This document shows positions 31 through 32,696 of a stretch of DNA of 64,000 nt, in pieces (position 1 is the stretch's first letter; each line of letters starts with the position of its first letter). The stretch is from Mucilaginibacter sp. L196 (GTDB taxonomy: Bacteria; Bacteroidota; Bacteroidia; Sphingobacteriales; Sphingobacteriaceae). Both the position numbers and the translations under genes were made by a program. The stretch spans positions 62,001-126,000 of the forward strand of contig NZ_LMUO01000004.1 of assembly GCF_009765905.1 (NCBI RefSeq), given 5' to 3'. The notes below the pieces were generated by a model, which saw only the letters and a program-made list of their open reading frames with translations, did not search any database and was not told the DNA's origin.

Positions 31-285
31 TTATTTTAAGGTATTTACAAACTTAGTAAGCTTTGATTTATTGTTTGAAGCCTTATTCTTGTGAATAACG
101 TTCTTTTTGGCTAAACGATCAAGCATTGAGATCACTTTTGATAAAAGTTCACTTGCTTCAACTTTGGTAGTTGTGCCTCTTAATTTTTTGATGGCATTCC
201 TGGTGGTTTTTGCCTGATACCTGTTACGTAAGCGCTTCGCAGCGTTAGAGCGGATCCTTTTTAATGATGATTTATGATTTGCCAT
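31..285 (-). CDS. rpsT: 30S ribosomal protein S20
   Basis: An 84-residue, very basic protein starting [22 protein letters not shown], the conserved N-terminus of bacterial S20, and of normal length for the family. S20 is a primary binding protein of the small ribosomal subunit that contacts 16S rRNA. The first Met is the only sensible start. It is a single-gene unit with a good promoter (323-354) about 40 bases upstream of its start codon. The neighbour GH109-type gene is on the same strand but lies upstream of that promoter, so the two are probably transcribed separately. Confidence 0.97.
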
Positions 286-322
286 TGTATAGCCTTATTA
301 TTCTACTTTTATTTAAGGACTG

Positions 323-354
323 CAAATATAGGATGATAAATTTAATTATGCAAA
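323..354 (-). promoter_or_regulatory. Bacteroidota-type promoter of rpsT
   Basis: On the minus strand a -33 box TTTG (351-354) is followed after exactly 20 bases by a -7 box TATATTTG (323-330), matching the TTTG/TAnnTTTG consensus known for the primary sigma factor of this phylum. The rpsT start codon is 37 bases downstream of the -7 box. This is the clearest full promoter in the window. Confidence 0.75.
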
Positions 355-410
355 CGTTTTTTCAACAAAAAACTTTAAGCTTATTAACACTGCTTTAATA
401 CTAAAGCAAC

Positions 411-1757
411 TCAATATGCATCATTTAAAGCAAACTTACTCACCCTATCTTTCCATTTACCCTTCGTAAAATCAGGGAATTGCTGGGGCATGTTGCCTTC
501 GACGATTGATTTTTCGGAAAGTGGTGTAATTACGCTCATCGTTACAGAGTCGTAAACATCAATTGGCGTTTGTACTTTGCGTTTAACCGATTCGACAAAA
601 GAATTGAACACAAACCAATCCATGCCGCCGTGCCCTGCCCCTTCGGCGAAATTGTTATATTTTTTCCAAAGGGGGTGATCATATTTATCCAGCCATTCAT
701 CCGCTTTATCCCAGGCATCATCTTGCTTGGATTGCCCTTCAATATAAATGGAATTGTTTACGTCCATCCACAAACCTTTTGTACCCTGCACCCTAAAGCC
801 CAGTGAATATGGACGAGGCAGATGCGTATCATGCGATAGCATCACGGTTTCGCCATTGGCGCAGTTGATCATGGTGGTGATCACATCACCATTCTTATAA
901 TTTATTTTAGCATTTGGGTTGCCGGGTGATATTTCTTCTACATAAGAAGCCAAACCGCGCGCTTTTGATGAGAAGGAAACCAGGTTAGTGAACCGGTTAC
1001 CATAATTGATATTGGCGTAATGCATTAACGGCCCTACCCCATGTGTTGGATAAATATCCGCATTACGATCAATATTAAACTGTGTGCGCCATTGTGCTTC
1101 GCTGATCGCTTTCGGACCAAATTCAGCTCCGTGGCCATAGTAGTGTTGACCATCATTAAATAACACTGCGCGAAGGTTGTGCTGATAACCGCCTTCCAGA
1201 TGGATCATCTCACCAAACAAGTTCTGGCGCTGCATATTTAGAATAGCCATTACATCGCGTCGGTAGCAAACATTCTCTAAGGTCATGTATGGCATACCAG
1301 TTTCTTCATGCACTTTTACAATATCCCAGTGGTCTTCTAAAGTTATACCTGCAATCACCTCGCAGCCTACGTACTTACCTGATCGCATGGCATCAATGGC
1401 CATTTCTTTATGAAACTGCCATGGCGTGGCAATAATAACGGCATCAATATCTTTACGGTCGAGTAATCGTTTATAAGCATCAACACTGCCGGTATATTCC
1501 TGCGGCATTTTTTTGCCTGATTTGGTAAACTGAGCACGGCATTCTTTAAGAGATTGCTCTTGCGTATCGCAAATAGCTACAATGTCCACATCATCACGAA
1601 GTAAGCCTTCATCAATGTGATTGCGCCCGCGAAGGCCAACACCAATATAGCCTAATCTAACTTTTTGCATGCTTCTACCAAACACAACGCTGGAGGGTAA
1701 AATACTGATACCCGCGGCAAGCACAGTGCCCGAGCTGATAAATTTTCTTCTATCCAT
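411..1757 (-). CDS. Gfo/Idh/MocA family protein, GH109-type alpha-N-acetylgalactosaminidase-like
   Basis: A 448-residue protein. The N-terminus MDRRKFISSG followed by a hydrophobic stretch looks like a Tat signal, so export to the periplasm is likely. An NAD-binding Rossmann motif GYIGVGLRGRNH is at residues 37-48. The middle part (LENVCYRRD near 160, YPTHG at 236-240, a Tyr at 317) matches the GH109 subgroup: the Tyr-x-x-His pair and the later Tyr keep the spacing of Tyr225/His228/Tyr307 in the Elizabethkingia enzyme. GH109 enzymes remove terminal alpha-GalNAc by an NAD-dependent redox mechanism. Actual substrate is an inference; a plain sugar dehydrogenase is the alternative. It stands alone, far from the other glycoside hydrolases of the window. 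Confidence 0.82.
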   Translation of the reverse strand: MDRRKFISSGTVLAAGISILPSSVVFGRSMQKVRLGYIGVGLRGRNHIDEGLLRDDVDIVAICDTQEQSLKECRAQFTKSGKKMPQEYTGSVDAYKRLLDRKDIDAVIIATPWQFHKEMAIDAMRSGKYVGCEVIAGITLEDHWDIVKVHEETGMPYMTLENVCYRRDVMAILNMQRQNLFGEMIHLEGGYQHNLRAVLFNDGQHYYGHGAEFGPKAISEAQWRTQFNIDRNADIYPTHGVGPLMHYANINYGNRFTNLVSFSSKARGLASYVEEISPGNPNAKINYKNGDVITTMINCANGETVMLSHDTHLPRPYSLGFRVQGTKGLWMDVNNSIYIEGQSKQDDAWDKADEWLDKYDHPLWKKYNNFAEGAGHGGMDWFVFNSFVESVKRKVQTPIDVYDSVTMSVITPLSEKSIVEGNMPQQFPDFTKGKWKDRVSKFALNDAY

Positions 1758-1850
1758 ATTTTAATGAGGTTATAAAGGCTAATTTGAGTAAATTATCTAA
1801 GTATTTTATCATAATTTTACAATGCAGATCATTAACAGCTACCAAAACTT

Positions 1851-2171
1851 ATGAAACAGCAATTCCACTACGCCACCGTTACCGAAGCCATTGAGCTATT
1901 AAGAAGACAAGGCTTTACCTTTGACTTCAATTTGAAAGAAAACCAGTTTATAGTGGGCGACAAAGCCTACACAGCCAATGAGTTTGAGATAGTGGATGTA
2001 TACCGCTACGAAGGCCCATCAGATCCGGGAGATGAAGCAACTGTTTATGCCCTTGCTAATAAAGAAGGTGTAAAAGGCATCCTGGTAGCAGGCTACGGCG
2101 CATCGTCTGACGAGGCATCTGAAGAGGCGCTTAAACAATTGCATTACAAATATCAGCAATCGCAAAAATAA
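1851..2171 (+). CDS. conserved hypothetical protein, 106 aa
   Basis: A small acidic cytosolic protein (no signal peptide or membrane segment) beginning MKQQFHYATVTEAIELLRRQG. Close relatives in Sphingobacteriaceae are, as I recall, sometimes labelled phosphoribosylpyrophosphate synthetase, but at 106 residues it has no PRPP-binding loop or room for that fold, so the label should not be used. It leads a tight three-gene run: 10 bases separate it from the phospholipase C-like gene and 8 bases separate that from the next. Function unknown. Confidence 0.8.
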   Translation: MKQQFHYATVTEAIELLRRQGFTFDFNLKENQFIVGDKAYTANEFEIVDVYRYEGPSDPGDEATVYALANKEGVKGILVAGYGASSDEASEEALKQLHYKYQQSQK

Positions 2172-2181
2172 CAAACCTGTA

Positions 2182-3144
2182 ATGAAGCAGACCGGCAGGT
2201 TATTAAGCGGGTTGTTGTTGATTGTGCTGTGCTCCTCTTGGGGCTTCTTCGCACATTACCGCATTAACCGGTTGGCTGTTTTTACGCTGCCTAAAGGCAT
2301 GTCGGGCTTTTACAAGGCCAATATTGGATACATTACAGAACATGCCGTAAGCGCTGATAAACGCCGCTATGTTGACTCCACCGAAGCTCCCAGACATTTT
2401 TTAGACGCGGACCATTATGGTAAAAATCCATTCAGCCACATCCCACAAAATTGGGGCGATGCCGTGCACAAATACTCGGCTGATACATTGGATAAATATG
2501 GCACCGTTCCGTGGGCTATTCAATACAACTATTATAAACTGGTAAAGGCTTTTAAGGCCCATGATACCACCGAAATACTAAATGCTTCGGCTAATTTGGG
2601 GCATTATGTTGCTGATGCACATGTGCCGTTACACCTCACTTTAAATTATAACGGACAATTAACTAATCAAACCGGGATACATGCCTTATGGGAAAGCCGC
2701 CTGCCTGAGTTATTTGGCGATCACTACAACTACTTTGCAGGCAAGGCCAGGTATATTGACGATCCGCTGAAAGAAGCGTTCAGAATATGCCGCAGCTCGT
2801 TTGCTGAGGTTGATTCCGTTTTGCGGTTTGAGCGAATATTGAACAAAACCTTCCCGGCAGATAAAAAGTATGTAAATACAAAACGTGGCCGCAAACAAGT
2901 GCAGGATTATTCGCCGGAATATAGCCTCGCTTATCAGAAAATGCTGAATGGCATGGTTCAGCGGCGATTTCGATCATCAATACAATCAGTTGGGAGTTAT
3001 TGGTATTCGGCTTGGGTGGATGCCGGGCAACCTGACCTGAATAAATTGATAGCTGCACAGTTAACCATCAGTCAAAAGAAAGAAATACAGCAGGAAGAGA
3101 CTATGTTTAAAGCAGGTAAAGTGTTAGATTTAAGGAGTAAATAA
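2182..3144 (+). CDS. secreted zinc-dependent phospholipase C / S1-P1 nuclease-like protein
   Basis: A 320-residue protein with an N-terminal signal peptide (hydrophobic LLSGLLLIVLCSSWG, residues 7-21). The expected first zinc ligands of this fold follow at once: Trp20 and His25 of the mature N-terminus (WGFFAH). Further ligands fit HYVADAHVPLH near residue 145 and the later His/Glu of GIHALWESR. This is the all-helical trinuclear-zinc fold shared by bacterial phospholipase C and S1/P1 nucleases. It probably acts in the periplasm or outside the cell on phospholipids or nucleic acid; which one cannot be told from sequence. It sits in the middle of a compact three-gene cluster. Confidence 0.8.
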   Translation: MKQTGRLLSGLLLIVLCSSWGFFAHYRINRLAVFTLPKGMSGFYKANIGYITEHAVSADKRRYVDSTEAPRHFLDADHYGKNPFSHIPQNWGDAVHKYSADTLDKYGTVPWAIQYNYYKLVKAFKAHDTTEILNASANLGHYVADAHVPLHLTLNYNGQLTNQTGIHALWESRLPELFGDHYNYFAGKARYIDDPLKEAFRICRSSFAEVDSVLRFERILNKTFPADKKYVNTKRGRKQVQDYSPEYSLAYQKMLNGMVQRRFRSSIQSVGSYWYSAWVDAGQPDLNKLIAAQLTISQKKEIQQEETMFKAGKVLDLRSK

Positions 3145-3153
3145 CTTAAACCC

Positions 3154-3645
3154 ATGCATGCCCGAATAATATGTTTATTAACCCTTTTTGCATTGGTTAT
3201 TGCTGCTAATGCACAAAACAGGCATCGCGCTGCTACTCCTCAAACCAAACAAGAGAAAATGGAAGCCCATGCATTGGCCAGCATAAACACGTTATATGAG
3301 GTGAAGGATTTTATAAAGTATCACAAAAAGTCCGAACCGTTGGTAATGTTAGATGGTGACCCCGATACGATCTGGAACTATTACCAGGTTAAAGTTGGTA
3401 TCAGTAACTATGATATGATGAGAACGAGCTTTCATTTTTTTGTTGCGCCAAAAACTTTCAAAATTTATATATGGGATATTTTGGACGACTCAGGAGTTGT
3501 TCCAATACATTTAATATCCTTACAACGGTGGCGGCGTTGGCGCGCCGATCCACGTTTCAATGGCTTTCATACTTTTAAAAACAACAAAATTATAGTTTTA
3601 AACCGGTATGGAACGGTAGCAAAGCGGGGTGAGGCGACTAATTAA
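3154..3645 (+). CDS. secreted hypothetical protein, 163 aa
   Basis: A clear signal peptide (MHARIICLLTLFALVIAANAQ, cleavage near residue 20) is followed by a basic Lys/Arg-rich domain with no motif I recognise. It starts 9 bases after the phospholipase C-like gene, so the two exported products are probably co-expressed. The gene ends 8 bases before the 3' end of the convergent DedA gene, leaving almost no room for a terminator between them. Function unknown. Confidence 0.75.
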   Translation: MHARIICLLTLFALVIAANAQNRHRAATPQTKQEKMEAHALASINTLYEVKDFIKYHKKSEPLVMLDGDPDTIWNYYQVKVGISNYDMMRTSFHFFVAPKTFKIYIWDILDDSGVVPIHLISLQRWRRWRADPRFNGFHTFKNNKIIVLNRYGTVAKRGEATN

Positions 3646-11865: not shown

Positions 11866-12023
11866 CAATCATAGAAATTGTTATTTACTATTATTCATAA
11901 ACATCATTTGATACCTCCAAATTTACGCACAAGAATTTAGAGAAGTGCTGACAGTGTTTTGTCAGTATTTAATTTATAGGCGTTCGGAAGATTGGATTTT
12001 CGCTAATATCGCTGGTATAGTTT

Positions 12024-29507: not shown

Positions 29508-31862
29508 TTAGTTTCCCTTATACTCATCTTCAATAGCTACTTCAGGTTTTAAAACGTTGTGATCTTTTTCAACAACAATAGTTTTTGAAACCTTAAAGTC
29601 TGCTGTTTGTCTGATGTCGCGCGATGAAGCACCTGCTTTAAGTACGTAATTTCCTGCATCAGTTATCCATGATGATGCATCAGTGTGGAACGATGCAAGA
29701 TCAGCCGCATTTATTTTGAAGGTTAATATTTGCGATTCGCCCGGTTGTAACAAACGGGTTTTGCCAAATGCTTTTAACTCCTGCGCAGGCTTGTCGATGG
29801 TTTTGGTTGGCGCGCTGATGTAAACCTGCACCACCTCTTTACCGGCAACCTTACCTGTATTCTTTACGGTTACGGTAGCAGTTAACAATCCACTAAATAC
29901 AGGTGAGCTTATCTTAAGATTATTTATAGAGAAATTGGTGTATGATAAACCAAACTCATACATTGGTTTTACTTTGTAAGTATCATAGTATCGATACCCC
30001 ACATATATTCCTTCCCGATAAACTACATGGTCGGGGTTGCCCGCGGGTAAACCCGGGAAGTTTTTAGCTGAAGGCACATCTTCATACTTAACAGGGAAAG
30101 TAGTTGCCAATTTACCTGATGGGTCAACTTTACCGGTTAAAATATCGGCAATTGCATTACCGGCTTCTTCGCCTGGTTGCCATGCTAATAATATCGCATC
30201 GGCATTATCTTTCCAGCCATTCATATCAATTACCCCACCAATGTTTAACACGATAACAACTTTCTTGCCTTTAGCGTGAAAACTGTCGGCGATCTTTTTG
30301 ATCTGTTGTTGCTCGTTAGGCGTAAGGGTATAATTGGTTTCCAGGTTACGGTCAGATCCTTCACCGGCATTTCTGCCAATAGTAATTAACGCCATATCGC
30401 TGTTATCAGCTTTTTGGTTGATCGTTTCATCAGCGGCTATCAATTCAGGCACCGGGCCAGGCCAGTGATGTGCTGCCCTTGCTATTGCACGTAATTTTTG
30501 AGTGGTATCATTAATGAAAGTAGTATAGCTTGTTTCTAAGTTAGCATCCAAAGTATAACCAGCATTTGCCAGACCTTTAGCTACCGAAATTACATAGGCC
30601 TTGTTTACATCGCCACTACCTGTACCGCCCGCGATAGTAAAGTAAGACGCATTACCAAAAGCAGCAATTGATTTTATGTTTTTGCTGATAGGCAGTGCAT
30701 GGTCTTCATTTTTTAACAGGATCATACCTTCGGTTGCCGCTTTGCGGGATACCATGGCATGCGCCTTTAGATCAGGTTTATCGGAGTAAGCGTATTTTTT
30801 GAATGATGGCGATTTTAGGATGATGTTTAAAATATGCGCCACATTTTCATCCAAAACTTTCATACTTAATGAATCATGTTGAACAGCGCTCATTAAATCT
30901 TCAATCTGGTCAGGGCGTCCCGGCATGATCAGATCGTTACCGGCACGTTCTTCAGCCACAGCACTATAGCCGCCGCCCCAGTCTGTCATTACAAAACCTT
31001 TGAATTTCCATTCATCACGCAAAACAGTGGTGATCAGATCATGTCTTTCTGCTGTATAAGTACCGTTTAGTTTATTGTATGATGACATTACGGTCCACGG
31101 TTGTGATTCTGTAATAGCAATGCGGAAATTCTTGAGGTATAATTCTCTTAAAGCCCTTTGACTAATAATTGCATTAACAGAATTACGATTTGTTTCCTGA
31201 TTGTTCGCGTCAAAGTGTTTGATGGATGTACCAACCCCATTTGATTGTACACCATTTATTAAGGCTGCGGCCATTTTACCTGCAACCAGCGGATCTTCAG
31301 AATAATATTCAAAATTACGCCCGTTTAAAGGGTTACGATGGATATTTACACCGGGCGCCAATAAAATATCAATACCATATTCTTTAACCTCGTTACCAAA
31401 AGCACGTCCTACTCCTTCTACTACCGATGGATCCCAGGTTGATGCCAATAGTGTTCCTACCGGGAAAGCAGTAGCAAAATAGGTGTGTGTACTATCGCCT
31501 TTGCGATGTGGATCAATTCTAACTCCGGCAGGGCCATCGCTTAATACTAATGACGGGATACCTAATCGGGGAATAGCTGTGGTATTACCTGCTGCACCCG
31601 GAACTTTGCGTTCTGTTTTACCGATCATCGGTGGTGGTGCCACGTAACCGCTGCTAACACCGGCCTTCATTTTTGGTCGTGGGGCTTTACCTGAACCAAC
31701 TACAAGGGAACATTTCTCTTGCAGCGTCATGGCGGCAATAACTTCTTGTATGGTGTTTTTACCTAATTGGGGTACAGGTTTTGTTTGCGCTTTTACGGTG
31801 ATGGAACTCGCAGTAAGCATAACCAGCATAATACTGGTTGCATAGTTTTTACAAAGGCTCAT
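29508..31862 (-). CDS. GH3 beta-glucosidase-like glycoside hydrolase
   Basis: A 784-residue secreted enzyme (signal peptide to about residue 25, TVKAQ). The GH3 N-terminal barrel has KHFDANNQETNRN (215-227) and the nucleophile Asp294 in FVMTDWGGG. The C-terminal sandwich domain and a fibronectin III-like tail (residues 650-760) complete the usual three-domain form. It should release terminal beta-glucose (or xylose) from oligosaccharides in the periplasm. No SusC/D genes are adjacent, so it acts alone or serves a remote locus. Confidence 0.92.
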   Translation of the reverse strand: MSLCKNYATSIMLVMLTASSITVKAQTKPVPQLGKNTIQEVIAAMTLQEKCSLVVGSGKAPRPKMKAGVSSGYVAPPPMIGKTERKVPGAAGNTTAIPRLGIPSLVLSDGPAGVRIDPHRKGDSTHTYFATAFPVGTLLASTWDPSVVEGVGRAFGNEVKEYGIDILLAPGVNIHRNPLNGRNFEYYSEDPLVAGKMAAALINGVQSNGVGTSIKHFDANNQETNRNSVNAIISQRALRELYLKNFRIAITESQPWTVMSSYNKLNGTYTAERHDLITTVLRDEWKFKGFVMTDWGGGYSAVAEERAGNDLIMPGRPDQIEDLMSAVQHDSLSMKVLDENVAHILNIILKSPSFKKYAYSDKPDLKAHAMVSRKAATEGMILLKNEDHALPISKNIKSIAAFGNASYFTIAGGTGSGDVNKAYVISVAKGLANAGYTLDANLETSYTTFINDTTQKLRAIARAAHHWPGPVPELIAADETINQKADNSDMALITIGRNAGEGSDRNLETNYTLTPNEQQQIKKIADSFHAKGKKVVIVLNIGGVIDMNGWKDNADAILLAWQPGEEAGNAIADILTGKVDPSGKLATTFPVKYEDVPSAKNFPGLPAGNPDHVVYREGIYVGYRYYDTYKVKPMYEFGLSYTNFSINNLKISSPVFSGLLTATVTVKNTGKVAGKEVVQVYISAPTKTIDKPAQELKAFGKTRLLQPGESQILTFKINAADLASFHTDASSWITDAGNYVLKAGASSRDIRQTADFKVSKTIVVEKDHNVLKPEVAIEDEYKGN

Positions 31863-32285
31863 AATGTAGGATTTATTGAGATTGTAAATATATAATTTAA
31901 AACAATATCATTGCTTCATAATCAAACAATGTATTGAAAATATTAACATTACACCTCATACCTGTTCTGAAGATTTCAAAAGAAGCGGCAGCCTGTGCGA
32001 TTCCCTCCCCCGGAAGGGTGTAGGGAGGGGGTTAGCCGCCCATCTATCATGCGAAACACCCCTCCCCGCTATCGCTCATTCCAGTCGCACCCCCAATGTC
32101 ATTAAGTTAAGGGGGCGCCAAGCATATAGCCCCCTCTAAATCTCCCCCGGAAGGGGAGACTTTAGCTTCGCCCGCGTTTGTTTTTTTAAGTCCTCCCTAC
32201 CGGGGAGGATTTAGGTGGGGCTTAACTTAATGACATTGGTCGCACCCCTCCCAGGGGAGGGAGTTAGGCCATCTTCCGAACACCT
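31863..32285. other. 423-base intergenic region filled with nested repeats
   Basis: AT-rich up to about 31990, then G/C-rich hairpin repeats of the CCCTCCCCCGGAAGGG type, interrupted by a MITE-like element (32094-32238). The outer repeat seems to run from about 32001 to 32270. No gene is supported. Confidence 0.7.
32094..32238. mobile_element. MITE-like element with target-site duplication
   Basis: 145 bp with 18-bp perfect terminal inverted repeats CAATGTCATTAAGTTAAG (32094-32111) and complement (32221-32238). The element is flanked on both sides by the 10-bp direct repeat GTCGCACCCC (32084-32093 and 32239-32248). Inside are two C/G-rich hairpins. It has no coding capacity, so movement would need a transposase elsewhere; a 10-bp duplication would suit an IS4-like enzyme. 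Confidence 0.72.
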
Positions 32286-32696
32286 CTAAAGCTTCCTGTC
32301 GCTCTCATTTATAGCCAGATCATTAATACTGGCAAAACGCTTTTCCATTAAGCCATTTTCGTCAAACTCCCAATTTTCGTTACCATAGGCACGAAACCAT
32401 TGCCCGGAATGATCATGGTATTCGTACTCAAACCTTACGGCTATTTTATTTCCGGTAAATGCCCACAACTCCTTTTTTAATTTATAGCTGAGTTCCTTTT
32501 TCCATTTTTCGGTTAAAAATTTAATCACTTCATCCCTACCGTTTATAAAAGCCGAACGGTTGCGCCATTCGGTATCAATAGTATAAGCAAGCGCGATGCG
32601 GTGCGGGTCCTGACTGTTCCAGGCATCTTCGGCTAGTTGAACTTTTTGTGTGGCCGTTTCAAAAGTAAAAGGCGGTAAGGGCAGTTTTTGTTCCAT
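32286..32696 (-). CDS. DUF1348 (SnoaL/NTF2-like) protein
   Basis: A 136-residue cytosolic protein with the DUF1348 pattern: [59 protein letters not shown]. The NTF2-like cone fold often binds a small ligand; the reaction, if any, is unknown. It is monocistronic and its 3' end abuts the repeat cluster. Confidence 0.9.

Follow-up and report, generated by a model that had tools for sequence, protein, structure and literature searches.

The IS4 subgroup of insertion sequences is credited, in the part of De Palmenaer et al. (2008; PMC2266710) that describes it, with the end pattern -AATR--------WTW----, with direct repeats of 10-13 bp and with lengths of 1400-1650 bp, and some of its members with spectacular apparent insertion specificity. 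For another element of the IS4 family, ISRm22, the relevant passage of Tobes and Pareja (2006; PMC1525189) describes copies lying in REP palindromes, with insertion where the consensus has its axis of symmetry. How does an intergenic repeat of Mucilaginibacter sp. L196 compare with these? The window, i.e., the whole 64,000-nucleotide stretch of DNA that was analysed, very probably holds an IS4-subgroup MITE that was derived by deletion and mobilised in trans, and that sits inside an older probable MITE of ~177 bp, with symmetric targets being favoured. Judged from sequence, both the MITE and the outer repeat look like reduced relatives of ordinary IS4-type insertion sequences. Nesting of this sort, in which a recent MITE from a known transposon family lies within an older repeat, is ordinary in kind, and ends common to several phyla, together with symmetric targets, take the present case slightly beyond the ordinary. 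The nested repeats are also cleanly ordered, with finds of the uninterrupted outer repeat, of a relative that has neither layer and of an element related to the parent.

The 145-bp element and the repeat that it interrupts

The MITE takes up positions 32094-32238 (145 bp) and has perfect 18-bp inverted ends (Table 1), which an inverted-repeat search reports as 19 bp because the flanking C and G of the duplication pair too. Its neighbours are a glycoside hydrolase family 3 gene (29508-31862) and a DUF1348 gene (32286-32696), both on the minus strand. It is short and non-coding, with no ORF of at least 90 aa inside its 145 bp, and it has terminal inverted repeats (TIRs), multiple copies and target duplications, i.e., what defines a MITE. 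The first-pass annotation had described an element of this size with perfect 18-bp ends and a flanking 10-bp duplication, and both descriptions hold, the ends being exact, the element multicopy in the genome and GTCGCACCCC exact on both sides. Folded as RNA the MITE reaches -73.3 kcal/mol (z -7.3), and a search of 31900-32400 with Rfam at gathering score gave 0 matches. No transcriptional role is claimed for it, a terminator scan of the stretch having yielded 1 match against 0.5 expected, and a promoter scan 2 against 0.4.

Table 1. Positions in the window of the MITE, its target duplication and the outer repeat
Feature	Position	Strand	Basis
Probable left end of outer element	31957..31978	+	16/22 match to the ends of the IS4-family element G000:C2:273073-274344
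Outer repeat, left part (CTGTGCGATTCCCTCCC...)	31979..32083		homologue alignment
Left copy of target duplication, 10 bp (GTCGCACCCC)	32084..32093		sequence
Left terminal inverted repeat, 18 bp (CAATGTCATTAAGTTAAG)	32094..32111	+	sequence
MITE core, strongly self-complementary	32112..32220	+	palindromic repeat dispersed in the genus
Right terminal inverted repeat, exact complement of left	32221..32238	-	sequence
Right copy of target duplication, 10 bp (GTCGCACCCC)	32239..32248		sequence
Outer repeat, right part	32249..32266		homologue alignment
Probable right end of outer element	32267..32288	-	16/22 match to the same ends of G000:C2:273073-274344

When the flanks are joined without the MITE they have matches, partial ones counted, in 71 of 100 genus genomes. 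The first of the matches listed is the interrupted window copy itself, and the next 24 start in bases 1-5 of the query and reach at least base 115, the junction being at bases 92-101. In the alignment of 14 homologues (L341, a badly cut row, and L342 were left out) all 14 have the junction, i.e., the duplicated sequence, once and ungapped within; a one-base gap seen in nine homologues is ~5 bases upstream of the junction and off the cut. Among 60 genomes searched the best flank match is in G009, 90-92% identical on either side, which has neither the MITE nor the outer repeat; its assembly is 58% complete, and its junction sequence is too diverged for a clean empty target. Since the outer repeat is continuous in relatives, and G009 has neither layer, the outer repeat predates the MITE. 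It had been claimed earlier that the MITE interrupts a separate G/C-rich repeat and arrived after it, with a search of relatives for the uninterrupted repeat proposed as a check. The outer repeat is real in genus homologues, its uninterrupted form is what all 14 of those aligned display, and the order stands.

What, then, is the outer repeat? In addition to what had been noted earlier, it probably represents another MITE, one that belongs to a second element of the IS4 family. At C2:273073-274344 the strain's own genome has a 1.27-kb element (L310) whose ends, CATAGGTGTTCGGAAGATTATT, are perfect and which encodes an IS4-family transposase of 404 aa, and it is these ends that the probable outer ends resemble, the outer element having a joined length of 177 bp once the MITE is removed. 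That it is instead an ordinary palindromic repeat, with no second MITE and a merely chance likeness to the ends of L310, is unlikely. This alternative can draw on an agreement of only 16 of 22 bases per end, on the genus homologues having been compared just inside the ends, and on the flanks AAAATATTAACATTACACCT and AAGCTTCCTGTCGCTCTCAT, in which no duplication was seen, as is expected for an older insertion. However, such a convergent end pair is present in 0 of 300 base-shuffled windows, the first 20 bases of the L310 end, if up to 3 mismatches are allowed, match the own genome at 42 places (reversed control: 1), and a second own-genome copy, L316, has ends matching at 17/22 around a related interior. 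From these end comparisons the outer repeat is likely to be an older MITE of the L310 type. A further match to the L310 end (17/22), at 11975-11996, is possibly another remnant of the second element in the window. L310 itself has seemingly inserted in a palindrome, TTTGTTGGTGGGGACACCAACAAA, one more palindromic target.

Relatives with a transposase and the origin of the MITE

Exact copies of the 18-mer at the ends of the MITE are present in 42 of 100 genus genomes and, in a sample of the order that partly overlaps with the genus set, in 39 of 201. A wider scan of a genome collection for the 18-bp end gave at least 117 stretches, in Bacteroidota, Firmicutes and others, among which isolated single matches may be due to chance. 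Eighteen TIR pairs of more than 1 kb were collected (1442-3248 bp, 0-2 mismatches per end; L256 is counted by its TIRs alone). Elements with these ends are 1442-3248 bp long in sister species, 1643-1646 bp in Allobaculum, 1467 bp in Aquimarina and 1691 bp in Clostridium. The duplication at the 18 long pairs is an exact 10 bp in 11, 9 bp in three and 11 bp in one, with none at the other three (L215, L216 and L256). The same 18-bp ends bound transposase-bearing elements both in sister species and in other phyla, and those tested are of the IS4 family: of whole transposases L117, L238 and L250 were scored against the IS4 transposase model, for which the cut-off is 115 bits, and they reached 157.6, 139.6 and 130.7 bits, a partial Allobaculum frame (L115) being below the cut-off at 109.5 bits. 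The signature Y(2)R(3)E(6)K was found in 14 of 15 scanned loci, a count that includes two differently ended own-genome genes (L309 and L310) and takes two elements twice (L210/L250 and L212/L238); L166 was the one without a match.

Some of these relatives carry or accompany more than a transposase gene. L238 (sister genome G043, 623-3567) is 2945 bp long, with one mismatch in its right end and an exact 10-bp duplication, and has as cargo an ECF sigma factor and one unassigned ORF beside the IS4 transposase. In L250 (G070, 151-3398) the passenger is a beta-lactamase-family serine hydrolase (PF00144). With their passenger genes the two resemble mobile insertion cassettes. In G088 (L267, 4290714-4292349) just 9 bp separate a 144-bp MITE from a full-length element of 1483 bp that shares its ends.

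Bases 1-129 of the MITE align to the left 120 bp of L238 at 79%, which suggests that the MITE arose when a longer element with a transposase gene lost its interior. It is most simply seen as a relative of such an element, cut down to the left end plus an 18-bp right end and, the similarity being just 79%, L238 is a relative and not the parent. In the course of events that we infer, the left ~128 bp of the longer element would already have borne the palindromic repeat before the deletion, which would have kept this left end plus merely 18 bp of the right end; a transposase, its source not found in this assembly, would have moved the MITE in trans, and cut-and-paste into a staggered cut, followed by repair, would have generated the 10-bp duplication. 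Could the 145 bp instead be a REP-like palindromic repeat that spread by another route, e.g., by means of a Y1 transposase, the duplication being coincidental? The MITE as query matches 95 of the 100 genus genomes searched and, among the matches listed, mostly by the core alone without TIRs, as such a repeat might. But exact 9- or 10-bp duplications are found at 67 of 127 candidate TIR pairs, even with false pairs included, and transposase-bearing elements are bounded by the same ends, which leaves this alternative very improbable and a deletion-derived MITE of an IS4-type element greatly preferred.

Where is the partner transposase? A full-length IS with these ends, for which a search had been advised, exists in the genus and beyond; the strain's own assembly did not yield one. 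There, the best result of a protein search was one distant fragment of 25% identity, a search by family returned two full-length genes of the IS4 family above the cut-off, plus two partial matches that were weak, and an end-sequence search found no transposase with these ends. L309 and L310 were rejected as partners, both having different ends. The assembly consists of 20 contigs, some MITE copies in it are broken by N runs or a contig end, and because of such gaps the absence of the partner from it is no proof.

Copies in the genome and the choice of target

A search of the strain's own genome with the MITE gave 50 matches. Twelve copies are full-length, and 4 further ones are cut short at a contig end or by stretches of N. 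Eight of the 12, the window copy among them, agree with one another at all 145 bases; the others are one copy each with a single end substitution, a one-base insertion and an end deletion, and one 142-bp variant. The terminal 18-mer has 28 exact matches in this genome and, with up to 2 mismatches, 36 against 1 for the reversed control. With matches so far above the control, and 12 full-length copies, the ends are not a matter of chance.

An exact 10-bp duplication flanks 8 of the 12 full-length copies (L011 included), and the duplications differ between copies. The inexact ones are 9/10 at L012, 8/10 at L007 and at L010 and, by its own ends, 4/10 at L005. Copies elsewhere without the flanking duplication had been named at the outset as what would speak against an insertion: they exist to the extent that the duplication is not exact at four of the 12, and at the eight where it is exact they do not. 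At L010 and L012 the MITE sequence is altered and the duplication inexact; L007 is identical to the window copy over its 145 bp, yet its duplication is only 8/10. Between the duplication copies in the L007 flanks, CGCAAGCGGT and CGCTTGCGGT, a palindrome loop appears to be flipped. L005 has another TIR-like end 84 bp away and, given this neighbour, may be rearranged. Amplification by recombination or gene conversion instead of transposition could draw on such rearrangement of some copies (the mismatched L005, and L007 and L010 at 8/10), but is hardly credible in the face of different, exact 10-bp duplications at 8 of the 12. Transposition is the preferred route, and identical copies with intact, differing duplications fit recent activity; the earlier judgement of a fairly recent insertion is borne out by the eight identical copies.

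Elsewhere in the own genome (L240-L242 and L244-L246) the same or slightly altered ends are beside another palindrome, of the CCCTCT...AGAGGG type; these ends are mostly single, with a likely pair in L246, and there may be a second core type common to this end sequence. At L247 (C2:391893, own genome) and at L063 of G087 the core repeat has one intact 18-bp end, and the partner end was not recognised in the adjoining stretches examined.

When 127 candidate TIR pairs, among them false ones, were screened for flanking duplications, 47 had an exact one of 10 bp, 20 one of 9 bp and one each 8, 11 or 12 bp, and 57 were without any. Empty sites were rebuilt from the 69 pairs with an exact 8- to 11-bp duplication, of which 51 remained after near-duplicate removal; these are from many species and element types, and have only the ends in common. 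At the duplication centre their mean number of symmetric pairs, out of 15, is 5.57 (controls 3.89; z 6.7), the value falls to 4.3 half a base off that centre, and pair frequency is elevated to ~8-10 bp from it, which indicates a preference for symmetric targets among elements with these ends. The preferential symmetry of targets in this group of elements is the other addition to the first-pass annotation. Outside the duplication the excess is small: of 10 pairs, 3.45 are symmetric about the exact centre (controls 2.61) and 4.43 about a centre that may slide (controls 4.08). Targeting based purely on cruciforms is weakened by this, and a symmetric recognition sequence may account for most of the symmetry. 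The window's own target has 6 symmetric pairs, an ordinary value, and no strong palindrome.

A preference for symmetric targets would account for several MITEs being in dispersed palindromic repeats. Eight of the 12 own-genome insertion sites resemble other collected loci, against 9 of 144 control windows, though since those loci were mostly chosen by MITE or end sequence the comparison is partly a measure of site-to-site likeness; the window site is outside those eight, yet in a repeat by flank searches. Self-nesting, i.e., insertion in sequence like the MITE core, is suggestive only, being seen at 8 of 68 sites and in 6 of 135 controls. With dozens of insertion sites in hand, the symmetric preference may help explain the break-up and mixing of Bacteroidota intergenic repeats. 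A bolder proposal, tentative and rather doubtful, is that an 18-bp end unchanged across phyla is used by distant IS4 transposases that read dyad symmetry in the target, and that MITEs so enter palindromes, including those of their own-core kind. If true, palindromes would draw insertions and MITE interiors would spread palindromes, with mutual feeding of repeats and MITEs.

Comparison with known systems

By inspection CAATGTCATTAAGTTAAG fits the IS4-subgroup pattern -AATR--------WTW---- as given in table 1 of PMC2266710. The 10-bp duplication of the window is within the range of 10-13 bp stated there for the subgroup, whereas the 9-bp class among relatives is outside it, and further likeness to that description is in the YREK signature and in the many full-length relatives near 1400-1650 bp. 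End pattern, duplication length and YREK would together place the MITE in the IS4 subgroup. Unlike the members of that subgroup, the window element is 145 bp and non-coding, and some relatives are 2005-3248 bp, with passengers in L238 and L250. The partner of the outer element compares instead with the IS231 subgroup, as that is presented in PMC2266710, in its CAT ends and, by eye, a possible 10-bp duplication, the comparison covering ends and YREK. Among the paper titles listed in literature searches none mentions the end sequence or its family, and a 12-base fragment of the end is present in three papers that are unrelated to judge by their titles. The likeness to ISRm22, as the passage of PMC1525189 on it has it, is that of an IS4-family element in dispersed palindromes; ISRm22 differs in subgroup, which is IS4Sa in the PMC2266710 classification, in its host, and in being associated with one REP consensus, whereas several types of palindrome are involved here.
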